Virus record (IMG/VR): IMGVR_UViG_3300046463_000268
Span: 1 to 20,277 of that record
Reading direction: 5' to 3' (one strand)
Source: a virus
Length of the DNA: 20,277 bases
Shown here: one piece after another, positions 1,419 to 18,451 of the stretch
Position numbering within the stretch: the stretch's first letter is position 1
How the letters are laid out: every line of letters starts with the position of its first letter
The notes under the pieces: model-generated
What the model was told of the DNA's origin: nothing
Databases searched by the model: none
The model's input: the letters and a program-made list of their open reading frames with translations, nothing else
Translations under genes and position numbers: made by a program

Positions 1419-4400
1419 TTAGAATCCGCCCTGCCTTACGCCCGCGCTGTTACGCAGCGAACGGTTGATGGTGGCGTGAGTCCCCGCCACAACGTCTTTG
1501 ATCTTTGCCTCGAGCCTACCGCCCAGTTCCGGGATCTCCAGCACGATTGTCGTACCCTCGAGTCCCGTCTGCCCCGGCCCAATAACGCGCTCCGGTGCCC
1601 CGGTGTTGTTCTGAATGAGGCTCGTGCCCGTCGGCAGGTACCCGCCCCGGTCGTACAGCTTCGGCGTGATGCCGCCCATTGCGTAGCCGCCGGCCTGGTT
1701 GTAGGCGCCCGCGAGGGAACCGTACCGGCCGATTGCGTATTTCATCGACGCGAGGATGTTGCTCATGGGGTCGTAAATGTTCGTGTTGTAGCCCGGCATG
1801 GCGTTCGCCCGGAACGTCGGGTCGATGACCTGCATGAGGCCCTTCGACGGGATCCCGGCGAGCGCGTTGCTGTCCCAGTTGTTAATCGCGTTGGGGTTGC
1901 CCCCAGACTCCTGGTTCATGCGCCGCAGTGTCGTCCCGAGAAGGTTCGACGGCTGCCCCATCATGGAGAGAGCCTGGCTGACGAGCCCTGCCCACTGCTG
2001 CACGCCCGCCCCAGCGGTCCCCGCGTCCACGGGTGTGCCGGCGGGGCCTGCGTGCTGCGTGAGGCCCTGTACGAGCTGCGTAGCCTTGTCCCCGAGCGAG
2101 CCAATGATCTTCATGGGGAACTGGGCAATCATCTGCCCAAAGTTCCCTCCGCCGGTCCCGCCGAGCATCTGCTGCACCGGTCCCTTGATGAGGTCCGTGA
2201 TGCCGCCGAGCGGGTTGCTCATGAAGTTGCCGACGTTCTTTGCCGTGTCCGACAGGAAGCCTGCAATGCCGCCGTCCGCGAAACCCATCATCTGCCGGAT
2301 GCCGGAGCTGTTGCCGCTCCTCGCCATTGCGTTCATGGCGTGGACCTTTTCGGCGCCGATGGCCTGCGTCCACTCCGGCCTCATGATGGCCTCACCGCCG
2401 GAGACCGCGATCACCTGGTTATCGACTCCCGGGCTGTACCCTGGCATGATGCCGCCCGTAGCGAATCCTGCCTTGACGTCCGGGAGTTTCATGTCCAGCC
2501 CAACCGAGCTGGCGATCTGGTTCCAGACCTTCTCGATTCCGTTGGTGTAGACGTTATCGACAATGAACCGGACCGGCGCCGCTGCGGCTTCCTTGATCTT
2601 GTTCCATGCCTTGCTGATGAAATCGCCGGTCGCGTCGAACGCCTTCCCGATGCCGTCAATCCCGTCGCTGAGCGGCTTGAAAACGTTGTCCCGGACCCAG
2701 CTCCATGCGCTGTCTGCTGCTGCCCGGATGTTCTCCCATGCGGGCTTGATGAAGTTCTCGTAGACCCACTTGAAGAGGGCGCCGAGCGCGTTCATGTCGT
2801 AGTTGATCGTGTTTATGACCTGGGCCTTCACCCAGTTCCATGCAATCTCAGCCGCGCTGCGGATGGCCTCCCATACGGTGCCGATCAGGTTGCCCACCCA
2901 TTTGAACACTGCCCCGATGGCGTCAAGATCCATTTTTATGGTGTTGATGACCTGGGCCTTGACCCAGTTCCACGCGATCTCGGCGGCGCTGCGGATGTTC
3001 TCCCATGCCGGCTTGATGTAGTTTTCGTACACCATTTTCATGAACTGGCCGACGGCATTGATGCCGTCGCTCATGGGTTTGAACACGCTGTCTCGGATCC
3101 AGTTCCACGCGGCTCCTGCGGCTTTCTGGATCCACTCCCAAGCCGGCTTGATTGCGTTGTCATAGACCCACTGGAACTCGCGGCCCATCTCCTTGAGCGC
3201 GTTCCCGATTGGCGTGAAGACGACCACGTTCAGGAAGTCGCCCACCATCTTGGCGCCCTTCATCATGTTGTCCCACGCGGGCTTGATCGCGTTCTCCCAC
3301 ATCCACTTCCCTGCTGCTGCGAGGAGGTTGAATGCGATGACGATCGGCGCCACAACGAGCGTCCCGATCACGGTCGCCATGAACTTGCCGGCGAGAACAA
3401 TTCCGTCGAAGATCGGCTTGAGGATGGTGTCGTAGAGCCACTTGGCTCCGTCCGAGACTATCTTCCAGCCGGCCGCCAGAACGTCCCCTACAGACTTGCC
3501 AAAGTCGGAAAACATGCCGACCGTGTTGTTGATGAAGTCGGAGAACATGCCGACCGTGTGGTTCACAAAGTCCGCGAACATGCCGACCGTGTTCGTCACG
3601 AAATCGTGGAACATGCCGTACGTGTTGGTCCCGAAATCCTTGAACATCCCGACCGAGGTCTGGAAAAACGAGACGACGTTTTGCCATGCCCCGATAAGCC
3701 ACGGGACGGCCGTGTTTACGATCCAGTCGACCACGTTCCCGACGGCCTCCTGGATCCATTTGAACGCCGCGTCGACGCCGTCCTTGAACCAGCCAACATT
3801 GTTGTATGCCCACACCAGGCCGGCGACAAGGGCTGCGAGCGCCATCACCACCACGCCTAACGGGTTTGCGTCCATGGCTGCGCTCAGGGACCAGAACTCT
3901 GCCGTGAGCATCTTCGTTGCCAGGGTGCTAATTGCCGATGTCGCGGCCCATGTTTTGCTGATGACAACCCACGCCGTGAAGCCTCCGACCAGGGCGAGGA
4001 TCCCGATGCCCAGCGCCTCCGCCGCACCCTTGTTCTCCCGGAACCAGTTCACCAGTTCCATAATCCCGTTCATGGTGTCTTTCATGGCTGGGGCGAGTGC
4101 CGTGCCAAGGGTAATCATGAGCGCCTCAAACTGCTGCTTGAGGCGTGCCGTGGTCGCGGCGAGGGTCTCCTGGGTGGCTGCGTTCGTAGAGATGTCCGAG
4201 CCCGACTGCTTGGCTGCCTGTGACATCTCCTCTGTCTTGTCCGTGAATGTCTTCATGTTCTCGCCGCCGAGCATGAGGGCCGTGTTCATGCCCGTAGCCC
4301 CGCCCATGATGTTCTTGAGCGCTGCTGCCGCGGTCTGCGCCTCGGGCCCGCCGTGCTTGATCTGGTCGTTGTAGCCGGCCACGGTCTGCGCGAGCGACAT

Positions 4401-6689: not shown

Positions 6690-7115
6690 TTAGTAGACGC
6701 CGCGGGTGGTGACGCCGGTCCGCTGGCCGTCCAGCTTGAACGTCGAGATGCCGCCGACCGGGGTCGTGATCGTGTAGTTGGTCGGGATCCAGTTCAGCGA
6801 GTATTTGATCTTGCCGGTTGCGCTGCCCTGGGGCCCGTACTCCAGCTTGATATTGGCGTTGGTGCCGTTCATGATCGCATCGATGGAGGCGCTGATCGTG
6901 CCGTCCAGGACCGAGTCGAACAGGCCCGCGATGGAGACCGTGGAGTCTTCGAGGCCGGCAATGTATTCCTTGCCGACGTCCCCGAAGTGGGTCGCCTCAG
7001 CGGTCGCAACGGACCGCGGGATATCGCAGGTGTTGGTGATCGCGGAGATGTCCACGAGCGTGTTGGTGGCGTCGCCAATCTTGACTACAGCGACTTTACC
7101 GTGGGAGAAAGCCAT
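6690..7115 (-). CDS. Tail tube protein, short paralog
   Basis: This 141-residue protein looks like a TP901-1-type major tail (tube) protein and sits directly upstream of the tail assembly chaperone. It opens with MAFSHGK and carries FGDVGKEYIAGLED at residues 44-57, followed by IAGLFD. The same signature occurs in the longer neighbour at 7136-7903, so the two genes are paralogs. The ATG start has AAGGA about 9 bases upstream. Hexamers of such proteins stack to form the tail tube around the tape measure. Which of the two paralogs is the main subunit cannot be decided from sequence, although this one is the minimal form. Confidence 0.8.
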   Translation of the reverse strand: MAFSHGKVAVVKIGDATNTLVDISAITNTCDIPRSVATAEATHFGDVGKEYIAGLEDSTVSIAGLFDSVLDGTISASIDAIMNGTNANIKLEYGPQGSATGKIKYSLNWIPTNYTITTPVGGISTFKLDGQRTGVTTRGVY

Positions 7116-7135: not shown

Positions 7136-7903
7136 TTAGAATCGGGCGAATGCCACGACGGCGGTTATGGTTCCTGATCCGGCCACCGTGGTCACGCTCG
7201 CGCGGACGTAACGGTTGACGGTTCCTGGCGCCAGCATAGGCGCGTAGGCTGTCGGCTGCCCGAACGGGTGCGTCGCGTCGATCGCCACACCGGCCGGGAC
7301 AGTCTGCGTGATGAGGTCCACCCACACGCTGTTGTCCACGCTGTGCTGGACCTTGACCGTCGTCGCGACGGTCCTCGTGTTGGTCGTGACATGGATGTTT
7401 GCCTGACCGCCGGCGGCGCTGGTGCTGCCGGTTCCCCAGTCGACCGATGCCGAAAGGAACGTGCCCGTCGTGGTGTAGGCGGTCCGGTCGTTGAGGACCT
7501 TTCCCCAGTCGACTGCCCCGGATACCTGTGCGCTCATCTTGAGCGTGACTGCCCCGCCGACGGGTGAGGATGGGGTGACGCTCGTGTTCCAGCAGTCCGC
7601 GAGGCGTGCCTGCCGGCCGATGATGCAGCCGCCGTCCGGGCAGTACGTCGCCGGGTACGTGGCCGTTGCGCTCGAGCTGAGCGCCCAGAGCCGGTCATCG
7701 ATCTGGCCTACGTCACCGTCGAAGAATCCTGATGCGTTCAGGACCGCGTCCTCGAGCCCGGCAATGTATGCCTTGCCCGTCGCCCCGAACGCCGTGACGT
7801 CCGCGGTGCCGATGGTCCTGGGGCTGTCCGCGCTGTTGAAGTACGGGGATGCGTCGAGGGAATCGAGGAAGAGCGCTGTCGCTTTACCGTGGCGGAATGC
7901 CAT
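7136..7903 (-). CDS. Tail tube protein, long paralog with extra C-terminal beta domain
   Basis: The first 150 or so of 255 residues resemble the downstream tube protein: MAFRHGK at the start, then FGATGKAYIAGLED at residues 39-52 and ASGFFDG. The last 100 residues form an added beta-rich domain with the pattern VQHSVDNSVWVDL at about 185-197 and RYVRASV near 231. That pattern recurs in the large protein at the right edge of the window. The ATG overlaps the stop of the preceding gene by one base (TAATG), and the gap to the short paralog is 20 bases. Tube proteins with extra surface domains are known (for example SPP1 gp17.1*), usually decorating the tail exterior. This may be the main tube subunit or a decorated minor one. 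Confidence 0.75.
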   Translation of the reverse strand: MAFRHGKATALFLDSLDASPYFNSADSPRTIGTADVTAFGATGKAYIAGLEDAVLNASGFFDGDVGQIDDRLWALSSSATATYPATYCPDGGCIIGRQARLADCWNTSVTPSSPVGGAVTLKMSAQVSGAVDWGKVLNDRTAYTTTGTFLSASVDWGTGSTSAAGGQANIHVTTNTRTVATTVKVQHSVDNSVWVDLITQTVPAGVAIDATHPFGQPTAYAPMLAPGTVNRYVRASVTTVAGSGTITAVVAFARF

Positions 7904-8259
7904 TACTCAGCCACCGCCTGGGGCTCTTCTGCGGGTGCCGGGGCTTCCGGTGCGGGCGCGGGCTCGGCCGGCGCTTCTGCGGGCTCCTCCGGGGCTGCTG
8001 CGGGCTCGGCCGGGGCCTCTTCCGCCGGGGCCTGCTCCGCCGGGGCCTGCTCCGGCTGGGCGGGCTCCTCCGGTGCGGGGTTGCTCTCCGGTGCGGCCGG
8101 TGCGTCCACGGGCGCACCGGAAGCCTTCTCGATCACGCCCGCTGCCAGTAGCTTGCTCGTCGCGAAGTCGGGCAGGTCGCTCACAATGTCGCCCACCTCG
8201 GCCCGCTTGTCGTCCGGTGGGTAGTTGATCCCCACCAGCACGCGGTATGTATCGCCCAC
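7903..8259 (-). CDS. Hypothetical Pro/Ala/Glu-rich protein, first gene of the tail operon
   Basis: This 118-residue protein has two parts. Residues 1-46 form a small folded-looking domain (YRVLVGINYPPDDKRAEVGD, then DLPDFATSKLLAAGVIEK) of a kind often seen in short phage proteins near capsid and tail genes. From about residue 50 to the end it is an acidic low-complexity tail of repeated A-P-A-E-E-type units with no predicted fold. The GTG start has AAGGG 7 bases upstream. It is the first gene after the regulatory module at 8292-8384 and is translationally coupled to the long tube protein. It is probably a virion or assembly protein; the function is unknown. Confidence 0.6.
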   Translation of the reverse strand: MGDTYRVLVGINYPPDDKRAEVGDIVSDLPDFATSKLLAAGVIEKASGAPVDAPAAPESNPAPEEPAQPEQAPAEQAPAEEAPAEPAAAPEEPAEAPAEPAPAPEAPAPAEEPQAVAE

Positions 8260-8291: not shown

Positions 8292-8338
8292 AGAATAGCA
8301 ACGCCCCGGCCTGCGTCTTCTCTGAGACACGCCGGGGC
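8292..8338 (-). promoter_or_regulatory. Hairpin plus -10-like element upstream of the tail operon
   Basis: The outer stem GCCCCGGC (8303-8310) pairs with GCCGGGGC (8331-8338), with an inner stem GTCT/AGAC around a 6-base loop. Five bases downstream on the minus strand lies TATTCT (8297-8292), a plausible -10 hexamer about 33 bases before the GTG at 8259. No convincing -35 is visible. Thirteen bases (GACACGCCGGGGC, 8326-8338) are identical to 15634-15646. Confidence 0.5.
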
Positions 8339-8353
8339 CATTCGGGCACAAGG

Positions 8354-8384
8354 AAGGCCACCCGTGAGCGCTACGGGTGGCCTT
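8354..8384 (-). terminator. Terminator hairpin at the end of the accessory cassette
   Basis: A perfect 12-bp stem, AAGGCCACCCGT (8354-8365) with ACGGGTGGCCTT (8373-8384), has a 7-base loop and is followed on the minus strand by a modestly T-rich tail (TTCCTTG). It lies between the stop at 8429 and the tail operon start at 8259, so it would end transcription of the accessory genes. Confidence 0.7.
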
Positions 8385-8428
8385 CGTGGTCGCCGGTGGA
8401 AGGATGAGGCCCGGCTGCCTCGTCTAGT

Positions 8429-8917
8429 CTAGCGGTTCTTGTGCTTCTCGTGCCCGTGGGTGATTAACGCCTTGATTGCTGTCTGCCCTAACGTCTCGTG
8501 GATTGCGTGCGGGAACTTGAATATGAGGCTGACCGTCGTTCCGTAGCTCATGCCGTCGTATTGTTCCTCGTAGTGCGTGAGGATGTCCCCGAGGGCCTCG
8601 ATCGGGATGAGCCCGCCACGGATGAGCTGCCGCTGGTAATCCTCGTGCCGCTTGATCGCCGCCTCTTTGTACCCGCGCTCCGATGCCACCCGGGCCTGGC
8701 TCTCCTCCAGCCGGCGCCGGAGATCCTCCTTTGTGTCGAACTCCGGGCCGTACGGATCGATCCCGGTCTCCACCATGCCCGGCGCCGTCACAACCTCCGG
8801 CGCCCACTCCCAAATCTTCCCACCATTCTCCCGCGCCATCTGCGCGGCCTCTTTGATCGTTAGGCCCTGGATCAGGTCAAACTCTTCATTCCGTGCCCCG
8901 TACTTGCGCTTGCCCAT
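8429..8917 (-). CDS. Hypothetical protein, last gene of the accessory cassette
   Basis: This 162-residue protein is not recognised. It has a basic N-terminus (MGKRKYGARNEEFD), a helical middle rich in E, R and K (about residues 64-95) consistent with a coiled coil, and a C-terminal HGHEKHK tail. The ATG has GGGAG 7 bases upstream, one of the better ribosome binding sites in the cassette. A terminator hairpin follows it. There are no Cys residues, unlike several of its neighbours. Calling it coding rests on the ribosome binding site, the tight packing and the absence of a better frame. Confidence 0.7.
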   Translation of the reverse strand: MGKRKYGARNEEFDLIQGLTIKEAAQMARENGGKIWEWAPEVVTAPGMVETGIDPYGPEFDTKEDLRRRLEESQARVASERGYKEAAIKRHEDYQRQLIRGGLIPIEALGDILTHYEEQYDGMSYGTTVSLIFKFPHAIHETLGQTAIKALITHGHEKHKNR

Positions 8918-8929
8918 TGTGCTACTCCC

Positions 8930-9232
8930 TTAGTCGTTGTCTTTGTACTGCAGAATCCGTTTGTCTTTGTCCGGGCCCGCCTGGTGTGTCCCCCACACCA
9001 CGGATAGCCCGAGCGCCGCGTAGGCCTGCGCTTTGCCGTGCGGGACGTATCCCTTGCCCTCGACGTATGCGTGCCCGTCAACCTGCGCCAGCGGCTCCGA
9101 TGCCGGTTCGGGCCCGGTGTTCCACCATGAGCGGCCGCAGCGGCAGTCGTGCGCGGTCTCGTGCCCGGTCTCCGCCTGGCAGGAGCATGTGTGCCGGCTG
9201 CGGTTGAATGTCCGCTCCGCCCTGCAGCTCAC
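8930..9232 (-). CDS. Small Cys/His-rich hypothetical protein
   Basis: This 100-residue protein starts at a GTG (9232) that overlaps the stop of the preceding gene as GTGA, indicating coupled translation; its own ribosome binding site is weak. The first third is rich in metal-ligand residues: C3, H14, C16, C18, H24, H28, C30 and C32. The remainder reads VDGHAYVEGKGYVPHGKAQA and on into a possible short beta/helix domain. Zinc binding is an inference from the spacing. The frame is open further upstream, but that part lies inside the neighbouring gene and I do not count it. Confidence 0.6.
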   Translation of the reverse strand: MSCRAERTFNRSRHTCSCQAETGHETAHDCRCGRSWWNTGPEPASEPLAQVDGHAYVEGKGYVPHGKAQAYAALGLSVVWGTHQAGPDKDKRILQYKDND

Positions 9233-9489
9233 GGCTTCGGGTAAGGGTTCGCGGTCTCGTAGTCGAGGTCCGTTGCTCCCGCTTTGTAGCCCTCTTCCCA
9301 TCCCTCGTGCATGCTCCCGAATCCGGCCGCCCTGAGCCGTCCCACAACATGCGCCGTGACCACGATCGACTCCGGGTATGCCTCGCCCTCGTACACCTTG
9401 TCGCAGCCCTTGGCGTGGCAGACGTGCCGCCCGTCCCGGAGCCCGTGCCTGGCGTGCTCGTTGATGATGTCCACCATTGTCTTACTCAT
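9229..9489 (-). CDS. Small hypothetical protein
   Basis: An 86-residue unrecognised protein. The ATG at 9489 overlaps the stop of the upstream gene and has GAGGAG about 8 bases before it. Visible features are H22, C24, H25 and C29 in the segment RHVCHAKGCDKVYEG, which could bind a metal, and a C-terminal region rich in Gly, Tyr and acidic residues. Overlaps of a few bases on both sides place it inside the co-transcribed accessory cassette. Confidence 0.65.
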   Translation of the reverse strand: MSKTMVDIINEHARHGLRDGRHVCHAKGCDKVYEGEAYPESIVVTAHVVGRLRAAGFGSMHEGWEEGYKAGATDLDYETANPYPKP

Positions 9490-9865
9490 TGCTGGCGCTC
9501 CTCGGTAGTGGTTCCAGCCCGCCCGATGGCGTGGCCCATTTGCGCTGATATTGCCGGGTCAGCCGTAGCAGGCTGAGCTTCGTAAACCACGGCACCGTGG
9601 CGTCTAGCTCCTGGTGCATGTTCTGGCTCACCCATTCGCTCACGCCGCCGTAGTAGCCCTCAAAGTAATAGGGGTCCACGCTGTCGATGATGCGCCGCAG
9701 CTCCGCGCAGTGGCCGCACGCAACATTGGTGAAGAAGTCGCCTTCCCAGCTCCCCGCGTGCCGGGCGTACAACTCGCCCGGGGTGATCGTCCGCCAGCAC
9801 TCCTCGCACTGGTGGGTCTTCCGGGCCTTGACCGTGCGTGTCGCGCCGAAGTCCTGGCCCGTCAC
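9482..9865 (-). CDS. Zinc-ribbon-like hypothetical phage protein
   Basis: This 127-residue protein has two CxxC pairs, C20/C23 (HQCEECWR) and C50/C53 (ACGHC), separated by 26 residues including PGELYARHAGSWEGDFF. The arrangement is typical of a zinc ribbon, and I recognise this general pattern from small phage and prophage proteins of unknown function. The C-terminal half carries many aromatic residues (DPYYFEGYYGG). The GTG at 9865 is chosen because it overlaps the previous stop (GTGA) and has GGGAGG upstream. A longer in-frame reading exists but lies inside the upstream gene. The function is unknown; nucleic-acid or protein binding is possible. Confidence 0.7.
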   Translation of the reverse strand: MTGQDFGATRTVKARKTHQCEECWRTITPGELYARHAGSWEGDFFTNVACGHCAELRRIIDSVDPYYFEGYYGGVSEWVSQNMHQELDATVPWFTKLSLLRLTRQYQRKWATPSGGLEPLPRSASNE

Positions 9866-10086
9866 GGTTTTCCTCCCTTGTGGATGAGTGCCGGCCTGCG
9901 GTACTCGCGGGCCCTGTCGCGCCGGAGCCGGCGCCGCTGCTTCTCCGTGTCCGCGAACGCTATCCGCAAATCCCACCGTGTGGCCCGGTTCGCCCATCCC
10001 GCGGCCTCGCTGACCGCCCGGAGCCCGGCCGCGAACTCATCCAGCGATTCAAGCATGCTCCGGAAAAATTCCTCGGTTGTGGTCAT
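9862..10086 (-). CDS. Small basic helical hypothetical protein
   Basis: A 74-residue protein starting at the ATG at 10086, which overlaps the preceding stop as ATGA. The N-terminal half is helical (TTTEEFFRSMLESLDEF). The C-terminal half is strongly basic (KQRRRLRRDRAREYRR), which suggests nucleic-acid contact or simply a charged tail. A longer in-frame reading up to 10614 crosses two neighbouring genes and is rejected. It is not recognised as a known family. Confidence 0.6.
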   Translation of the reverse strand: MTTTEEFFRSMLESLDEFAAGLRAVSEAAGWANRATRWDLRIAFADTEKQRRRLRRDRAREYRRPALIHKGGKP

Positions 10087-10445
10087 GCCGTCACCGCCAC
10101 GATGTTTGCGAGGGGAATGTTGATGGTGGAGGAGCGGCCGGTGCTGTGCGTGACTGATTTCTCGTTGACGCGGATGATCCGGTACCAGCCGTGGCTCGTG
10201 CGTACCTGCGTCGCTGCTTCGAGCTGGGCCCGGGTGAACGGCTGCGGGCGCCTGCGCTGGAGCACCTCCAGCCGGATGCGGACCGCCGCCGCGGTGTCGG
10301 TGTCGCCGTTGGCTTCGGCGCCGGAGATCACGCGCTCCATGGCCGCGACGTCCTTCTCCCACTGGGCAAGCTGCGGGGCTTCCGCCTTGTCGTAGGGCCA
10401 CTGTTTGCGGGTAATGATGTCCTCGACCAGCTCCGGGCCTGTCAT
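10083..10445 (-). CDS. Hypothetical protein of the accessory cassette
   Basis: A 120-residue unrecognised protein. The first part is helical with acidic and basic residues alternating (about residues 15-75). The second part has a beta-like stretch with W, Y and several I/V residues (HGWYRIIRVNEKSVTHS, then INIPLANIVAV). The ATG overlaps the upstream stop as ATGA. The C-terminal half resembles a small beta-barrel or SH3-like fold; that is an impression only. Confidence 0.65.
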   Translation of the reverse strand: MTGPELVEDIITRKQWPYDKAEAPQLAQWEKDVAAMERVISGAEANGDTDTAAAVRIRLEVLQRRRPQPFTRAQLEAATQVRTSHGWYRIIRVNEKSVTHSTGRSSTINIPLANIVAVTA

Positions 10446-10639
10446 CGCCTGCCGCCCTTGCGGATGCTGTAGCCGCCGACGCTCTTCTGCCGGGCGAGTC
10501 TGGCCTGCGCCGGGGTGAGTTGTACCGTGATTGTGGTGCCGTCGATCTCAACGGCTGCCGGCACGATGCCGCCGCGGATGGGGTCCCATCCCTGGGCGGC
10601 GACGGTCTGGTCATAAATTGGGGTCTGGTTTTCGCTCAT
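10442..10639 (-). CDS. Small hypothetical protein, first gene of the accessory cassette, possibly leaderless
   Basis: A 65-residue unrecognised protein with a beta-like centre (VEIDGTTITVQLTPAQAR) and a basic C-terminus (RKGGRR). It lacks a Shine-Dalgarno sequence. Instead, TATGAT lies at 10651-10646 and six bases later comes the A of its ATG, the geometry of a leaderless transcript as is common in actinobacteria. The 18-bp repeat motif (10645-10662) overlaps this putative promoter. As the first gene of a seven-gene overlapping set, its promoter would drive the whole cassette. Confidence 0.65.
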   Translation of the reverse strand: MSENQTPIYDQTVAAQGWDPIRGGIVPAAVEIDGTTITVQLTPAQARLARQKSVGGYSIRKGGRR

Positions 10640-10644
10640 GCCCC

Positions 10645-10662
10645 AATCATAACCTAGGTTTC
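10645..10662 (-). promoter_or_regulatory. Repeat motif copy 1: palindrome plus TATGATT
   Basis: The minus strand reads GAAACCTAGGTTATGATT. The core AACCTAGGTT is a perfect 10-bp palindrome. Two further copies occur at 17155-17172 and 18434-18451, all between genes and upstream of accessory cassettes. It is likely an operator overlapping a promoter; the TATGAT part could be the -10. Confidence 0.65.
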
Positions 10663-10663
10663 T

Positions 10664-10840
10664 TTAGTCGGGGGTGTCCGCCGTAATCCGCGTCTCACGC
10701 GGAATAGTCCCGTCCGTACTCCGGTTCTCCGTCTTGCACCGCCCGCACCCAATCGTCCATGGCCGCGTCACCGACTCCGCGAGAAGCTTCCCGCACCCCC
10801 GGCACCTCGGCCTGACATCCGTCGCGATCAGCCTACCCAC
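10664..10840 (-). CDS. Small Com-like zinc-ribbon protein
   Basis: A 58-residue protein with C13, C16, C32 and C35 in the pattern RCRGCGKLLAE ... IGCGRCKTEN. It closely matches the layout of the Com family of small phage zinc proteins. Com of phage Mu activates translation of the mom DNA-modification gene, but Com-like proteins also occur without mom, and no mom gene is visible here. The GTG at 10840 is chosen because it overlaps the upstream stop by 8 bases and has GGGGAG just before it. A longer in-frame reading to 11044 lies inside the upstream gene and is Arg-rich nonsense. Family resemblance is fairly clear; the function here is open. Confidence 0.7.
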   Translation of the reverse strand: MGRLIATDVRPRCRGCGKLLAESVTRPWTIGCGRCKTENRSTDGTIPRETRITADTPD

Positions 10841-11123
10841 GGGGCTCCCCGCAATCCCCACAGAACCGGACCAGCCCTGACATGGTCTCCGTCTCCATGG
10901 CCGGGCCCGTGTGCTGGCAGTCCACCGCCGGGGCCTGCCCCATGACCGCCGTAGGGTCCTCCGCCGGCGCCTGCTCACGTCCGCCCTGGTGCGCCCGGGA
11001 AAGGTCCTGTGCCCGGTCCACAAGGGCTTCCCGCGCCATGACAAGCGTGCCCAGTGAGGCGTCGATCGCGATGACCGCCTTCTCCAGCGCCCTCATCGCC
11101 TCATCGTAAACTTGCTCAGACAT
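10833..11123 (-). CDS. Small protein with helical N-terminus and C-terminal Cys motif
   Basis: A 96-residue protein. Residues 3-45 are helical (YDEAMRALEKAVIAIDA onward), and the C-terminus has a likely zinc knuckle: C69, H71, C88 and C91 (DCQHTG ... RFCGDCGE). The ATG at 11123 has GGAG 7 bases upstream and overlaps the tail terminator gene by 8 bases, so it is co-expressed with neck genes. No family is recognised. It and the next small zinc-ribbon gene mark the shift from neck genes to accessory genes. Confidence 0.65.
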   Translation of the reverse strand: MSEQVYDEAMRALEKAVIAIDASLGTLVMAREALVDRAQDLSRAHQGGREQAPAEDPTAVMGQAPAVDCQHTGPAMETETMSGLVRFCGDCGEPRG

Positions 11124-11550
11124 AACTCGGCTCCAGACTGATCGTGAACATGGTGCTGAAAATCTCCTGGTTGCGTTTGTCCCTGCCCTGCGAGTTGATG
11201 TTCCCCGGCTGCGCGTAAAGCATCCGCAGCCCGCGACTGGTGTACTCGCCCTGGTTCGCGATCAGGTACCGGAGCCTCATCATCTCCGTACGGGCCTGCA
11301 CATAGTCCGTCGGGTCACCCTGGACAAGGACCTCGATCACGGCTTCTTCGAGCGCGACGGCCGTCCCCATGGTGAACTGTGGTGCCCCGCCGGGTGCGTC
11401 CAGCACGAACCGGCACAGCCCGTTCTTGTCCTGCGTGTATGCCATGAACACATCCGTGTTGAGCACCGCGCCGGGGGTCTTCGCGATGATGAGATCAGCG
11501 ATCAGTTCCATGGCCGTTGGGGCGCCCGTGATGAGTGTGGGGTCAGCCAT
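11116..11550 (-). CDS. Tail terminator protein
   Basis: A 144-residue protein in the classical position after the HK97-gp10-like neck gene. Segments such as AMELIADLIIAKTPGAVLN at the N-terminus, the central DAPGGAPQFTMG, and the C-terminal IFSTMFTISLEPSYV fit the fold of minor capsid or tail terminator proteins (PF12691/DUF3168-like). These form a ring that stops tube growth and joins tail to head. The ATG has GAGGAG 7 bases upstream. The assignment rests on gene order plus general sequence character and is not a strict motif match. Confidence 0.75.
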   Translation of the reverse strand: MADPTLITGAPTAMELIADLIIAKTPGAVLNTDVFMAYTQDKNGLCRFVLDAPGGAPQFTMGTAVALEEAVIEVLVQGDPTDYVQARTEMMRLRYLIANQGEYTSRGLRMLYAQPGNINSQGRDKRNQEIFSTMFTISLEPSYV

Positions 11551-11974
11551 TGAGTATCTCCTCGATCTTCATCGCAATGCGTGCGTCCAGTCCCGGGATG
11601 TGCGCCTCGACCGGGTCTGATAGGTAGTCTTTTTTCTTGCCGTTCCCGAAATTCTGGATGACGTGCGTCCCGTCCTCCCGCATGCCCCGGTGCAGGTACA
11701 TCGCGTAGGCGACGGCGCTCGATCCGTAGCTGAGCTGGACCGTGACCTCGCCGGCCGTGAACACCGGGTTTTGCACCCGGGCGCTGGCCTTGAGCCCGCC
11801 GAACCGGAACGGCGCCTCCTCCTGGCTGTCCCTCATGATGAGATCCGCCTCTTCTTTCAGCACCCGCCCAAGGGTCGGTTGTGCTGTGGCGCCGGCGCGG
11901 GTGAGTAGGGCCACGAGCTCGTCGTGCCCCACCACCTCGATGCTGCCGATCAGTCCATCAGGCACCGGCGCCAT
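11543..11974 (-). CDS. HK97 gp10-like neck/tail completion protein
   Basis: This 143-residue protein shows the hallmark features of HK97 gp10-type proteins: a helical N-terminus (VALLTRAGATAQPTLGRVL) and a C-terminal ring segment (YAMYLHRG, then PVEAHIPGLDARIAMKIEEIL). It takes part in the head-tail joining complex. The ATG at 11974 is preferred because GGAG lies 9 bases upstream. An upstream in-frame ATG at 12055 would add 27 residues of Ser/Thr/Arg-rich sequence lying wholly within the stopper gene. It overlaps the stopper gene by 17 bases. Confidence 0.8.
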   Translation of the reverse strand: MAPVPDGLIGSIEVVGHDELVALLTRAGATAQPTLGRVLKEEADLIMRDSQEEAPFRFGGLKASARVQNPVFTAGEVTVQLSYGSSAVAYAMYLHRGMREDGTHVIQNFGNGKKKDYLSDPVEAHIPGLDARIAMKIEEILNG

Positions 11975-12356
11975 GCCCCGATTCTCCACGTTCCCCGAAG
12001 TAAATCTCCTGGTGGTGGATTCCCTCGGCGCCGTACCGGTTGATGACGACGGCAATCATGGCTGTTTCCCAGCCCGTCACACTGGAAAGGCTCGGGATCT
12101 CCGCCTTATCGTTGGTCGTCAGCCACGGCACAATCCAGCCAAGATACGCTTTGCCGCTTACCGGCCTGACTTCCCCTGTCGCCGTGGTCAGGTTCTCGCT
12201 GCGGTCCTCCATGTGCATGGGGATGAGGATGGGTGATGTCCCGTAGGTTTCCTTCCCGTAGGCGTCCCGCCCCGAGAACTGGGTCACCCGGAGGTTGGCC
12301 GGCATGAGCGCCAGGAACTCCGGCTCCACCTCCGTGAATCCGTACTGGTTGGTCAT
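11958..12356 (-). CDS. Head-to-tail stopper protein
   Basis: A 132-residue protein directly after the adaptor gene, with an ATGA overlap. It has a beta-rich centre (LRVTQFSGRDAYGKETYG) and the pattern KAYLGWIVPWLTTNDKAEIPSLS, which resembles head closure (stopper) proteins of siphophages that plug the portal channel after DNA packaging. The ribosome binding site is weak, so translation probably depends on coupling. Evidence is mainly gene order (adaptor, stopper, gp10-like, terminator) together with size. Confidence 0.75.
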   Translation of the reverse strand: MTNQYGFTEVEPEFLALMPANLRVTQFSGRDAYGKETYGTSPILIPMHMEDRSENLTTATGEVRPVSGKAYLGWIVPWLTTNDKAEIPSLSSVTGWETAMIAVVINRYGAEGIHHQEIYFGERGESGHGAGA

Positions 12357-12778
12357 AGCCCGAGCCCGCCCATCATGAAGCTAGACAGCGCCGGGCTGTC
12401 CATGCCCCCCACAGCGAACACCGACGGCTGAGAGCTGTCCCATACGGGCCCACCCTCCGCGACGGCTGTGCGGCCGGCGAGGAGCCTGTCTGCGAGCTCG
12501 TAGTATTGCTGCGCCATGGCCGGGAAGTCGTACTTGACCTGCAGCGTCCCAATCCTGGTCTCCGCGACAACGAGTGTGGAGAACTTGTTCGCCATGGCCC
12601 GCGCGGTCTCGCTCGCCGCCTTGTAGGCGTCCGGGACCCCGTTGTAGGTGTTCTGCGTCAGCCAGAAATCAATGTCCCCGTCTGCCGGGCTGTACTTGCC
12701 CTGGGTAACATCGCCCAGCAGGTACCGCACAAGGTCGCGGTTACTCGAAGCTAGGTTGCCCGAATATGTCCAGCTCAC
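12353..12778 (-). CDS. Head-to-tail adaptor protein
   Basis: A 141-residue protein with a strong match to the usual adaptor pattern: an N-terminal WTYSGNLASSNRDLVRYLLGD, then DGDIDFWLTQNTYN, a helix AYKAASETARAMANKFS, and VKYDFPAMAQQYYELADRLL. Adaptors form a ring under the portal. The C-terminus is Gly/Met-rich (SSFMMGGLGL). The GTG at 12778 overlaps the upstream stop as GTGA and has GGAGGA 9 bases before it. Confidence is high because both pattern and context agree. Confidence 0.85.
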   Translation of the reverse strand: MSWTYSGNLASSNRDLVRYLLGDVTQGKYSPADGDIDFWLTQNTYNGVPDAYKAASETARAMANKFSTLVVAETRIGTLQVKYDFPAMAQQYYELADRLLAGRTAVAEGGPVWDSSQPSVFAVGGMDSPALSSFMMGGLGL

Positions 12779-13014
12779 CGATGGTCCTCCACATTCCAGA
12801 TCTTCTTATTGCATGTGCCGCAGCGGTATTCCCGCCAGCTCGTCAGAACCTCATACAGGCTGACGGTCCGTTGCTGCGCGTCCGGGTAAAACCCAAGGTA
12901 CCGTGCCCCGCATTTCTCGTGGTACTCGCGGGGCCCGTACCTGGTCTGGATCATCAGACCCACCATAACCTCGAGAAGTGTCAGGCTCGGGGCCTCCGGC
13001 GCTGGTGCCTTCAT
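12775..13014 (-). CDS. Small zinc-ribbon-like hypothetical protein within the neck genes
   Basis: A 79-residue protein with H32, C35, C65 and C68 (EYHEKCGARYLGFYP ... YRCGTCNKKIW), consistent with one zinc site. It sits between the head fibre gene and the adaptor gene, and its stop overlaps the adaptor start as GTGA. No known family is recognised. The start at 13014 has only a weak ribosome binding site. Confidence 0.65.
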   Translation of the reverse strand: MKAPAPEAPSLTLLEVMVGLMIQTRYGPREYHEKCGARYLGFYPDAQQRTVSLYEVLTSWREYRCGTCNKKIWNVEDHR

Positions 13015-13023
13015 GGCTCAGGC

Positions 13024-13299
13024 CTATTTCAGGTGCCCGGCGTTTTTCAGCGCCAGCGATAGTGCGTTTACCTGCGTCACCAGGTTATTGATGATGCCCT
13101 GCTCTGTCGCCGTGTAGGTCGCCCCGGCGCTGCCGGCCGTTGCCGTCGGCGCCGTCGGTGTTGACGCGATGACCGGCTTCTGCCCGGACACCGCAGTGAC
13201 CAGACCGTCCACGCCCGATGCCGGCGAAACCACCTTGCCGCCATCTCCGATGACAAGCGTCTTCACCACAATCTTGTCGAAATACTCTGTCCCGCTCAC
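13024..13299 (-). CDS. Putative head fibre protein
   Basis: A 91-residue protein directly downstream of the major capsid gene. The N-terminus has a small beta-like region (FDKIVVKTLVIGDGGKVV), followed by a Ala/Thr/Pro/Val-rich linker. The C-terminal part (GATYTATEQGIINNLVTQVNALSLALKNAG) is a short coiled coil closely resembling Phage_fiber_2-type head fibre proteins, which trimerise and project from the capsid. The GTG at 13299 has a strong GGAGGAGG site. It is separated from the capsid gene by a strong terminator, which would keep its expression below that of the capsid protein. Confidence 0.65.
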   Translation of the reverse strand: MSGTEYFDKIVVKTLVIGDGGKVVSPASGVDGLVTAVSGQKPVIASTPTAPTATAGSAGATYTATEQGIINNLVTQVNALSLALKNAGHLK

Positions 13300-13316
13300 T
13301 GCCCCTCCTCCGGGGT

Positions 13317-13357
13317 AAAAGGACGGCCCGGCACCCGTGCTGGGTGCCGGGCCGTCC
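13317..13357 (-). terminator. Strong intrinsic terminator after the major capsid gene
   Basis: A perfect 16-bp GC-rich stem (13321-13336 with 13342-13357) and a 5-base loop are followed on the minus strand by TTTTA (13320-13316). It lies 17 bases past the capsid stop and about 20 bases before the head fibre start. It is a textbook Rho-independent terminator and probably leaves only partial readthrough into the neck genes. Confidence 0.9.
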
Positions 13358-13374
13358 CGCGTGTCTGGTGCTGG

Positions 13375-14352
13375 TTAGGCGACGGCGGATGCCATGAACA
13401 CGCCGAGGTTCGGCGCGACAACCTTGTTCGACCAGGCAGCCTGGGACTCAATGCGAGTCGCCTTGAGGTTCTCCATGCGGATCTGGTAGGTACCGACGGT
13501 CAGGCCGCTGGTCCCGGTGATGCCGTTCCAGGAGAACGTGTAGCCGGCGGACGGGGTGAGCAGGCCCGGGTTCGGGGCACTGTGGCAGAGCAGGATCGAC
13601 TTGGGGTAGATGTACTGCACCGCGTCGGTCTGTCCTTCCTTGTTCGATGCGACAAGGGTGCGGGCGACGATAACCTCGTCAACACCGAAGTAGCGTGCGA
13701 GCAGCTCCTCCGTCACAACATTGGCCGACGTGTACTTGATTCGGTCGATGATGTTGGGGTGGTTCTTGAGCGCGTTGAAAACCTGCTTGCCCAGAACAAT
13801 CTTGTTGACGTCGTAGCCGGTGACGCCGGCAACGTTTTCCTTGGCCGCCTCGATCGTGGAGATCGGGGTGGAGTTGGTGTAGTCGTTGAACTGGATGAAC
13901 TGGTTTGCGGACGGCGCGGATGCGACGCCGGTCAGGTCGGTGCCCCAGACGCCGGTCTTGAAATAGGTGTTGGCGAAGTCGACTTCCTGGCGGAGCAGGA
14001 GGCGGCTTGCAACAAAGTTGGTGGCGTCCGTGAGCGGGCTCAGCGGGGAGGTCGCGTTCTGCATGACCTGGTCGCCAACGTCCTTGTGGAAGGCCCATAC
14101 GTCGGTCGAGTAGGTGTCGGTGCCGACGTTGTAGCCGGATCCGACGGACTCGGTCGCGTCTGCCCGCTTCTGGGCGACGTCCTGCAGCCAGTCGTTCTGG
14201 TTGTACTTGAAGTACAGGCCGCTGGCCTTGTCCACCGGGACCACAGGGAAAACCTTGTGGGCGATGTAGTTATCCTGCGACTGCATGTATGCAACCGACA
14301 GGTTGGTAAGGACCGCGTCAATGTGGGATGCATTGAATCCGGGCTGTGGCAT
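13375..14352 (-). CDS. Major capsid protein
   Basis: This 325-residue protein builds the capsid shell. It matches a widespread major capsid family: N-terminal SVAYMQSQDNYIAHKVFPVV, the dipeptide-rich YFKYNQNDWLQDVAQKRA, then TDTYSTDVWAFHKDVGDQV, and a segment LLLRQEVDFANTYFKTGVWG in the first half. Further on, KIVLGKQVFNALKNHPNIIDRIKYT is also typical of the family. The ATG has AGAGGA 11 bases upstream. It comes after scaffold-like and decoration genes, and a strong terminator follows. I do not see a cleaved N-terminal delta domain. Confidence 0.93.
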   Translation of the reverse strand: MPQPGFNASHIDAVLTNLSVAYMQSQDNYIAHKVFPVVPVDKASGLYFKYNQNDWLQDVAQKRADATESVGSGYNVGTDTYSTDVWAFHKDVGDQVMQNATSPLSPLTDATNFVASRLLLRQEVDFANTYFKTGVWGTDLTGVASAPSANQFIQFNDYTNSTPISTIEAAKENVAGVTGYDVNKIVLGKQVFNALKNHPNIIDRIKYTSANVVTEELLARYFGVDEVIVARTLVASNKEGQTDAVQYIYPKSILLCHSAPNPGLLTPSAGYTFSWNGITGTSGLTVGTYQIRMENLKATRIESQAAWSNKVVAPNLGVFMASAVA

Positions 14353-14392
14353 TGTGCTTTTTCCTCTCTAGGGTTTCTGCTGGTCAGCCGGA

Positions 14393-14776
14393 TTAGGCGT
14401 GCAGGAAGCTGGCGCCGAAGTCGACAAGTCCCGTGAAGATGTCGCCGGAAACGGCGCTCACCATTGCGGTACCGACTACGGGGGTGCCGGTGACGGCGGT
14501 GATCGCAGCGCCAGAGGCGTTGAAACCAAACTGGGCGCCGGCTGCGATGGTGCCGCCGGCCTTCACCTTGACGGCTCCGCTCGTCGCGATGGCTGCGGCT
14601 TTGCCGGCCTTCGGGTCAGAGTAGAGCACGCCGAACGGGTTGTCGCTGGTCGCGGCAATCGGGATGATCTGCCCGGCTGCGTCCAGCTTCACGCCCGTGT
14701 AGAGGTACGTGGCCGTGGCGGAAAGGTCATTGGTGCTGTTGCGAGTGACAAACTCGACATTCTGCTCGTAAGCCAT
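14393..14776 (-). CDS. Capsid decoration protein (DUF2190-like)
   Basis: A 127-residue, Ala/Gly/Val/Thr-rich, beta-dominated protein just upstream of the major capsid gene. Segments such as AATSDNPFGVLY, GAVKVKAGGTIAAGAQFGFN and VVGTAMVSAVSGDIFTGLV match the repeated turn-strand layout of DUF2190-type head decoration proteins, which stabilise the capsid surface after expansion. The ATG at 14776 has a GAAGGGGG ribosome binding site 8 bases upstream. Position and pattern agree. Confidence 0.8.
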   Translation of the reverse strand: MAYEQNVEFVTRNSTNDLSATATYLYTGVKLDAAGQIIPIAATSDNPFGVLYSDPKAGKAAAIATSGAVKVKAGGTIAAGAQFGFNASGAAITAVTGTPVVGTAMVSAVSGDIFTGLVDFGASFLHA

Positions 14777-14779
14777 TGC

Positions 14780-15574
14780 TTATGCCCCCTTCTGGGCTTC
14801 GAAGTAACGGGTCTGCAGTTCGGGGGAGCCCTGGAGAGCCTTCGCGAACGCGGCCTCGGCGGTCAGGGAGCTGTCCGACTTGCGGAGCTCCTCGCCTGCG
14901 GCGGTGATCTCGGAGAGCACCCCGTCGACGCCGGTGCCGGCAGACTTCGCAACGGTGCCGACCTCGGTGAAGAGGCCCGATTCTGCGAGCTGGGCGTCGG
15001 CTGCGGCGAGCGCGGTCTCGATGCTCTTCGCAACGTCCGGGGCGACCATTGCCATGCGGCGGAGTGCCGGGGCAACCTCGCCGTGGTTGATCGCTACAGC
15101 CTTGAACATGTCCTTGGACTTGGCGATCGCGTCAACGTCCAGTCGGGCGTCGCGTTCCTTCGCGAAGTCCGCGCGGTCCTGGGCGGCCTGCTTGCGGAGC
15201 TCCTCGGTTTCCCGTGCGGACTTCTCCAGCATGTCGCGGACGGCCGGGGGAAGGTCTGCGGACTTGAGCAGTTCCTCCGGGGTCTGTTCCTTGGCTGCGG
15301 GTGCGGGCGCTGCGGCTGCCTTGGCTACCGCCTCGTCGCGCTCTGCGGTCAGTGCGGCCACCTGCTTCTGGAGGTCCTCAACGGTCTCCGTGGCGCCATT
15401 CTTCTCTGGCACGTTGGTTCCTTTCATTGTGTTGAGGGACCCAAACAGGCCCTCGACTACTGCGGGGGTGGCAGACTTCATGACTACCCAGCCTTCGGTT
15501 AGGTGCGCTGGATGATCGACGCCGGATGTCTCCGTGACATCGATCTCGACCATCTTTCGCTGCTGCTGCGGCAC
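14780..15574 (-). CDS. Putative capsid scaffolding protein, possibly related to a prohead protease
   Basis: A 264-residue protein, first gene of the capsid operon. The N-terminus (VEIDVTETSGVDHPAHLTEGWVV) resembles the start of proteins found at this place in other phages. The middle is a long charged coiled coil (about residues 62-150), and the C-terminus has AEAAFAKALQGSPELQTRYFE, a motif often found at the end of scaffolds or protease-scaffold proteins. No protease active-site motif is evident, so scaffold is the better call. The GTG at 15574 is chosen because GGGAGG lies 5 bases upstream. A longer frame to 15712 runs through the terminator and is unlikely. Confidence 0.7.
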   Translation of the reverse strand: MPQQQRKMVEIDVTETSGVDHPAHLTEGWVVMKSATPAVVEGLFGSLNTMKGTNVPEKNGATETVEDLQKQVAALTAERDEAVAKAAAAPAPAAKEQTPEELLKSADLPPAVRDMLEKSARETEELRKQAAQDRADFAKERDARLDVDAIAKSKDMFKAVAINHGEVAPALRRMAMVAPDVAKSIETALAAADAQLAESGLFTEVGTVAKSAGTGVDGVLSEITAAGEELRKSDSSLTAEAAFAKALQGSPELQTRYFEAQKGA

Positions 15575-15598
15575 TGTGCCCTCCCTAGGTTCCCCCTG

Positions 15599-15646
15599 AG
15601 CATAGGACAGCCCCAGCGGTCGCGATCTTGTGCGACACGCCGGGGC
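15599..15646 (-). promoter_or_regulatory. Hairpin plus -10-like element upstream of the capsid operon
   Basis: The arms GCCCC-a-GCG-GTCGC (15610-15623) and GCGAC-a-CGC-c-GGGGC (15632-15646) form a stem with one mismatch and one bulge. Five bases further on the minus strand is TATGCT (15604-15599), a plausible -10 hexamer 25 bases before the scaffold start. Spacing and 13 identical bases match the element at 8292-8338. No clear -35 is seen. Confidence 0.5.
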
Positions 15647-15685
15647 AAAACAAAGGACCCCCACCGCGTGATGCGGTGGGGGTCC
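15647..15685 (-). terminator. Terminator hairpin upstream of the capsid operon
   Basis: A perfect 13-bp stem, GGACCCCCACCGC (15655-15667) with its complement at 15673-15685, has a 5-base loop and is followed on the minus strand by TTTGTTTTG (15654-15647). It would end transcription of the accessory genes before the capsid operon begins. Confidence 0.85.
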
Positions 15686-15786
15686 CTCGTGTGCGTATTC
15701 GGTCGCCACCAAGAGCCATCGCCTTTCACGGGCCCCGGCTGGTGTTCGCCCGGCGGCTGGTCGCTATTCGTGCATGCTGCTCTTGC
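15686..15786. other. Non-coding spacer between the tRNA-like element and the terminator
   Basis: No gene with a ribosome binding site is visible here. In-frame readings through this stretch continue across the terminator and do not look like protein. Together with the flanking elements it forms a 393-base gap (15575-15967) without a confident gene. Confidence 0.5.
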
Positions 15787-15848
15787 GGACTGGCAGGAAT
15801 CGAACCTGGCTGGTTGGCTGTACGCCCCTCCGCTCTCGCGGTCAGTCC
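15787..15848 (-). ncRNA. tRNA-like cloverleaf, possibly a decayed tRNA
   Basis: On the minus strand a 62-base segment folds as a small cloverleaf. The closing stem is GGACTG/CAGTCC, followed by a hairpin CCGC-GAGA-GCGG, a short GGC/GCC hairpin, and a very tRNA-like T-arm, CAGG-TTCGATT-CCTG. The T-loop is a perfect match to tRNA consensus. Against a working tRNA: the D-arm has a GNRA tetraloop in place of a D-loop, there is no 7-base anticodon loop, the length is about 10 bases short, and no CCA follows. It could be a pseudo-tRNA, an attachment-site relic or a tRNA mimic. Confidence 0.4.
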
Positions 15849-15849
15849 T

Positions 15850-15869
15850 CCCGCTGTCATGTCAGCGGG
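15850..15869 (-). other. 7-bp stem-loop next to the tRNA-like element
   Basis: CCCGCTG (15850-15856) and CAGCGGG (15863-15869) pair perfectly with a 6-base loop, immediately 5' of the tRNA-like segment on the minus strand. No T-tract follows, so it is not a typical terminator. It may be a processing signal or part of the same RNA. Confidence 0.45.
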
Positions 15870-15873
15870 CTAT

Positions 15874-15966
15874 TCAGTTGTCGGCGGCCTGGATCCCTTG
15901 CAGCTCCCGCGGTGTGCGCGGTGCCTTCCCGGTGCGGGCCTGCCGTCCCTTGCGGGTCTTTGCCAG
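15874..15966 (-). CDS. Possible 30-residue basic peptide with a CTG start
   Basis: One base after the stop of the membrane protein gene an open frame runs from CTG (15966) to TGA (15874-15876). It would encode a very basic peptide beginning (M)AKTRKGRQARTGKAPRTP. GAGG is found 7 bases before the CTG. No ATG, GTG or TTG is available in this frame. It may equally be a leftover of a longer gene. Existence as a real gene is uncertain. Confidence 0.25.
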   Translation of the reverse strand: MAKTRKGRQARTGKAPRTPRELQGIQAADN

Positions 15967-17154: not shown

Positions 17155-17172
17155 AACCATAACCTAGGTTTC
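17155..17172 (-). promoter_or_regulatory. Repeat motif copy 2: palindrome plus TATGGTT
   Basis: The minus strand reads GAAACCTAGGTTATGGTT, identical to the copy at 18434-18451 and one base different from the copy at 10645-10662. It lies in the 108-base gap between two accessory cassettes, upstream of the gene starting at 17113. Confidence 0.65.
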
Positions 17173-18433: not shown

Positions 18434-18451
18434 AACCATAACCTAGGTTTC
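18434..18451 (-). promoter_or_regulatory. Repeat motif copy 3: palindrome plus TATGGTT
   Basis: The minus strand reads GAAACCTAGGTTATGGTT. It lies between the stop at 18472 and the GTG at 18401, 32 bases before the gene. It is likely a promoter with an overlapping operator, or a repressor site. Same sequence as copy 2. Confidence 0.65.

Follow-up and report, generated by a model that had tools for sequence, protein, structure and literature searches.

We analysed a 20-kb virus fragment (IMG/VR virus record IMGVR_UViG_3300046463_000268, positions 1 to 20,277; this whole stretch of 20,277 nucleotides (nt) is referred to as the window), which carries on its minus strand two similar modules, one ahead of the tail operon and one ahead of the capsid operon. 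These modules are probably terminator-insulated, activator-type late promoters of the structural operons. Both display the same order of elements: behind an intrinsic terminator comes a 13-nt box (GCCCCGGCGTGTC), from which a spacer of 28 or 29 nt leads to a TATNCT hexamer, with a GTG start further downstream. Compared across phages, the conserved unit consists of an intrinsic terminator, the box (C)CCGGCGTGTC(G), 28 nt (27–29) of unconserved sequence, and a −10 of the form TANNNT, with no −35. Promoters that depend on an activator are built in this way, with a −10 but no −35 and with an asymmetric box at a constant distance. Apparently, this is a so far undescribed but conserved type of late promoter in actinobacterial phages: no late-promoter description was found in the literature on Arthrobacter and Microbacterium phages, promoters are not mentioned in a paper dealing with 46 Arthrobacter phages, and a literature search with the box sequence returned unrelated papers only.

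In the tail module, the intrinsic terminator (8347–8385, minus strand) revealed a perfect 13-bp stem (GAAGGCCACCCGT/ACGGGTGGCCTTC) spanning 8385–8353 with a 7-nt loop, followed by CTTGTG (fold z-score −4.9). The box with its conserved core GGCGTGTC is located at 8326–8338, and it forms the beginning of a second hairpin of 8 + 6 bp (8303–8338), which ends 5 nt before the −10 hexamer TATTCT (8292–8297, 28 nt past the box); 32 nt separate this hexamer from the GTG at 8259. The terminator of the capsid module (15647–15690, minus strand) has a perfect 13-bp stem at 15685–15655, extending to 18 bp with wobble pairs, and runs into the T-run TTTGTTTT (z −8.7). Here, box (15634–15646), second hairpin (15610–15646), and −10 hexamer TATGCT (15599–15604, 29 nt past the box) follow in the same way, again with 5 nt between hairpin and hexamer, and with 24 nt from the hexamer to the GTG at 15574. 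With their GC-rich perfect stems and T-rich tracts, both terminators fit the intrinsic type. A search for sigma-70-type promoters at both modules found none, neither module has a −35, and no TTGACA adjoins the box. The place, strand, and order of the modules as given in an earlier, sequence-only reading of this DNA were thus confirmed, as were the 13 identical bases common to both second hairpins: the window contains exactly two copies of the 13-mer. That reading had described perfect terminator stems of 12 and 13 bp; both are perfect and the capsid stem indeed has 13 bp, but so does the tail stem. A repeated 13-mer with TANNNT 26–30 nt past both copies was obtained in only one of 100 dinucleotide shuffles.

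Terminator, box, and spacing recur in phages of several genera, with a pronounced strand bias and ahead of portal or protease, capsid, and tail genes. The nearest isolated relatives of the window are Arthrobacter phages, and the box followed by 27–29 nt and TANNNT was found in Arthrobacter phages Wheelbite, Waltz, Shrooms, Edmundo, Salgado, LiSara, Kovu, Ottawa, and Kharcho as well as in Microbacterium phage ValentiniPuff and in record L057. In 10 Arthrobacter/Microbacterium isolate genomes (608 kb), the pattern GGCGTGTC-N27-29-TANNNT gave 23 matches on the structural-gene strand and none on the opposite strand, and the reversed pattern matched neither (0 and 0). The sites lie ahead of the head and tail operons in all isolates, frequently with a terminator stem of 11–16 bp located 9–21 nt upstream, and also ahead of the portal gene in Kovu and of the capsid protease gene in ValentiniPuff; one Kovu site is found where gp48 meets gp49, in a group of small genes without assigned function. 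The earlier claim that the modules precede the structural operons only is therefore true within the window and does not extend to the relatives with their additional copies before portal or protease genes. Wheelbite and record L119 each harbor two exact copies of CCGGCGTGTC, both at operon starts and with the hexamer at 28 nt, and Kovu harbors three, each with the hexamer at 27–29 nt. In L157 and L167, unrelated contigs found by the motif alone, the box is placed directly before a phrog_13547-like gene and capsid genes. Of the 23 modules selected for folding, 21, including both from the window, contain the pentamer GTGTC; the remaining two have GTGCC and GAGTC.

Throughout, the spacing from box to −10 is fixed and the distance from terminator to box is variable. 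Terminators are sometimes missing, as at the Kovu portal site and the ValentiniPuff tail site (inside gp61), where box and spacing are kept. Since the terminator distance varies and terminators can be absent, the box belongs with the −10 and not with the terminator. For the same reasons it is very improbable that the box, generally found 9–21 nt past a terminator, is a downstream termination or antitermination signal belonging to the latter with a merely fortuitous −10 match; the host sepF sites described below also have no terminator.

In the proposed mechanism, the intrinsic terminator would halt RNA polymerase arriving from upstream genes and insulate the promoter, and the structural-gene promoter, with its TANNNT −10 and no −35, would follow directly. 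The box, at about −53 to −41 (centred near −46, asymmetric) and thus 28 nt (27–29) before the −10, would replace the −35, and a sequence-specific DNA-binding protein bound to it would recruit or position RNA polymerase with the main sigma factor. We infer late transcription from the −10 and the binding of a protein to the box; start and timing are deduced from the structural genes served. The idea of late-gene boundary elements that stop readthrough and restart transcription is supported with respect to the terminator and a restart promoter with a conserved −10 position, an arrangement that Laroyevirus phages, Kovu, Ottawa/Kharcho, and L057 likewise have at their head and tail operons; the recognition of a hairpin, also part of that idea, is not. 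Several points weigh against a late promoter of this type. In an alignment of 17 modules, GGCGTG-C and TA...T were invariant and the spacer variable, but this invariance is partly by construction, as the aligned sites had been selected with the same box and TANNNT pattern. The exact box copies in Wheelbite, L119, and Kovu, the strand counts, and the motif-only contigs suffer less from this circularity. The isolates are related, six of the 10 genomes belonging to Laroyevirus, and some of their sites are thus not independent. As a −10, TANNNT is weak. Moreover, most freshwater relatives of the capsid gene (55–60% identical) lack the module. A search for a pentamer past their terminators gave too few cases, with one suggestive example in L050 (terminator-GTGTC-N29-TATTCT). 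Should the promoters be confirmed, the box with its fixed spacing would provide a search key for late operons, with start sites predicted to the base.

Some further sequences resembling the box were noted. Among the freshwater relatives, L006 and L010 carry an inverted box (CGACACGCCG) before the capsid operon, upstream of the gene preceding scaffold and capsid genes, and L010 additionally shows at about 15568, c. 4.6 kb past the capsid gene, a terminator followed by TTGGCGTGTCG, 12 nt, and TATGCT, a similar sequence with another spacing. L143 (12688, minus strand) and L168 (3633, minus strand) have a terminator, CCCCGGCGTGTCG, 29 nt, and TAAGAT, with CTTAAGATATG common to both at the −10; a capsid operon was not seen in either contig, and L168 carries a ParA gene.

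The sequence-only reading had pointed to the second hairpin, whose inner stems differ between the two copies and still pair, and had suggested that an RNA or DNA structure may be recognised by a phage factor. Indeed, both window hairpins fold far better than shuffled sequences (z −4.5 for tail and −6.3 for capsid), and the difference between the paired inner stems is real for the two copies in the window. However, the compensation has no counterpart in the relatives. We folded 23 modules (from the window, L005, L057, L157, L167, Ottawa, Kovu, Wheelbite, Waltz, Shrooms, Edmundo, Salgado, and ValentiniPuff) from box to −10, and a fold better than that of shuffles was confined to the two window modules (z −5.5 and −4.3). 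The hairpin was absent from all 21 other modules (z −1.6 to +1.3), RNAalifold revealed no conserved base pair in the 17-module alignment, and the hairpin structure of the window gave 47.1% paired cells, no better than the 45.7% in shuffles. Thus, folding, RNAalifold, and pair counts led us to reject a conserved RNA structure with compensating changes. The closest relative, L005 (capsid protein 92% identical), still has the terminator, CCGGCGTGTC, 28 nt, and TACGCT but lacks the second hairpin. Since the hairpin ends 5 nt upstream of the −10, it would also lie outside the new mRNA. That a phage factor recognises the hairpin is therefore hardly credible, being contradicted by its loss in 21 of 21 other modules and by the lack of conserved pairs; what the relatives keep, when examined as the earlier reading had proposed, is the 13-base sequence with its spacing. 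Read on the opposite strand, the 3' arms of the tail and capsid hairpins (GCCCCGGCCTGCGTCT and GCCCCAGCGGTCGC) are imperfect inverted copies of the box, and a guess that probably accounts for both hairpins is such a second, inverted copy. The two-copy hairpin is incidental to the DNA box, and it illustrates that even a striking "compensatory" pattern in two copies can be of this kind.

Regarding the protein that would read the box, the most likely candidate, which we name tentatively and from sequence likeness, is host WhiA, possibly together with a WhiB-like partner. Read in reverse complement, the core GTGTC gives GACAC, the site of WhiA (PMC3781837, PMC4850268), and in Streptomyces venezuelae this protein is an activator of sepF3 that also binds upstream of ftsE (PMC3781837). 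Like the phage modules, the Streptomyces promoters dependent on WhiA/WhiB (sepF3, ftsE, ftsZ, ftsW) have a GTGTC/GACAC core near the promoter. The pattern CGGCGTGTC-N27-29-TANNNT was searched in 119 host genomes, all from a single actinomycete order. The matches recur at certain genes: 12 at sepF and two at ftsE (all box-27/28-TANNNT), recA in at least two genomes, and one BldC-family gene. At the 12 sepF sites, the spacers were about 40% identical on average and the −10 (TACCGT) 94% identical, with only TA...T required by the pattern. The recurrence of the phage layout, box-28-TANNNT, at sepF and ftsE, orthologues of genes bound by WhiA in Streptomyces, makes WhiA the best single candidate. 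Other evidence points the other way. The host scan gave 67 matches compared to about 60 for the reversed pattern, i.e., no overall enrichment, and within the order about 85% of the sepF promoters are without the layout, which was seen at no more than about 13 of 98. GACAC comprises just 5 bp with no reported extension matching GGCGTGTCG, and the published consensus fixes neither orientation nor distance (PMC3781837), whereas the box of the phages has more letters and a rigid position. A WhiB-family protein was found in each of the 10 isolate genomes, and equally in 10 of 10 large capsid-gene relatives that have no box; this co-occurrence is therefore uninformative and was dropped as support. 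Furthermore, the WhiB proteins of Laroyevirus (L433, Wheelbite) and Kovu (L434) show GVWAA/GVLAA in place of the G[VI]WGG of most others, so their sigma contact may differ. It is doubtful, though conceivable, that the virion operons are under the control of the host's WhiA cell-division switch with the phage WhiB-like protein as partner. If so, infection would draw host WhiA away from sepF and other division genes and towards the capsid and tail operons, and widespread phage WhiB-like proteins would gain a concrete target.

Two further observations concern the host promoters. A peak of GTGTC-N36-TANNNT ahead of sepF (29 of 62) turned out to be coding sequence rather than promoter, since CGTGTCGG in this peak encodes R-V-G within the conserved C-terminus of the upstream gene. 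At the host recA promoters L466 and L471, the box lies upstream of a LexA-like site (CGAACGCGTGTCCG in L466, CGAACACGTGTTCG in L471) and of TANNNT, the LexA-like site being located within the spacer.

Phage late activators such as Ogr of P2, C of Mu, and MotA of T4 use promoters consisting of a box and a −10 without a −35. The modules resemble these late promoters in having a −10, no −35, an upstream box at fixed distance, and virion genes downstream, and they differ in box sequence and distance and in having Actinomycetota as hosts. It is rather unlikely that a phage-encoded late activator of this kind reads the box instead of a host protein. In several Laroyevirus genomes, the tail module is closely preceded by a small gene with the annotation helix-turn-helix (HTH) DNA-binding, but comparison of Ottawa, Kovu, Wheelbite, and ValentiniPuff by open reading frame (E 1e-4) yielded no common HTH or regulator family, although a short diverged protein could escape such a comparison. 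The families common to these four genomes were structural genes, SSB, and one other open reading frame, with WhiB as the sole regulator, and the same layout at host sepF and ftsE promoters also speaks against a phage activator. An imitation of the upstream element of host ribosomal RNA (rRNA) promoters is improbable as well. About 50 Microbacterium/Agrococcus 16S promoters carry CGGCGTGTCG two bases upstream of TTGACA, and the order box-NN-TTGACA is found in several phage contigs, but the exact 16S matches are largely a product of the search pattern: among 33 rRNA promoters chosen without the box, GGCGTGTCG was present in six and GTGTC in seven, and their consensus was CGGCG(C/T)G(T/C)CGA. Thus, mimicry of rRNA promoters was rejected. 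These promoters show a related sequence (CGGCGYGYCGA) immediately before the −35, but they possess a strong TTGACA and a distance to the −10 of 26 nt, 2 nt shorter than the 28 nt of the phage modules, and most other actinomycete 16S promoters are without the box. In records L114, L003, L004, L090, L145, and L164, CGGCGTGTCG is positioned exactly two bases before TTGAC(A), with a −10 17–19 nt further on; L003, L004, and L114 harbor 4–6 copies of a box of this type, nearly all on one strand, with no match of the reversed pattern. The SAS/ESAS of cluster K mycobacteriophages are likewise repeated short elements with inverted repeats before selected genes, but they include the ribosome-binding site at the start codon, whereas the phage box lies upstream of the putative transcription start.

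Concerning the genes behind the modules (all on the minus strand), the tail operon begins with a gene of family phrog_7924 (7903–8259), followed by genes for two major tail proteins (7136–7903 and 6690–7115), a chaperone, and the tape measure. Within the tape-measure gene, tandem repeats of 33 bp and with a spacing of 135 bp were noted at 2728–3664. The capsid operon starts with a phrog_13547 gene (14780–15574), after which the scaffold (14393–14776) and the major capsid protein (13375–14352) are encoded.

The last upstream gene is followed, before the capsid terminator, by a tRNA-like stretch at 15785–15850 (minus strand), with a T-arm (GGTTCGATTCC), an acceptor-like GGACTG/CAGTCC, and a short D-arm; ARAGORN made no call, the stretch gave a weak match to tRNA-Sec (E 4.9), and L005 has no obvious counterpart. 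At 15850–15880 (minus strand), and at about 250–287 in L005, CAACTGAATAGC is followed by a stem-loop with the loop ACATGA, whose stem pairs in both of the two sequences available (CCCGCTG/CAGCGGG in the window, ATCGG/CCGAT in L005). Finally, a second repeated promoter-like element, GAAACCTAGGTTATGRT, occurs on the minus strand at 10651–10660, 17161–17170, and 18440–18449, and it consists of a perfect palindrome (AACCTAGGTT) joined to a −10 (TATGAT/TATGGT). A comparable sequence, AACCTAGGTTTAGGCT, was found upstream of the head module in L057. Since an ATG is located only 6 nt downstream of the copy at 10651, the sequence suggests a leaderless transcript from this element.

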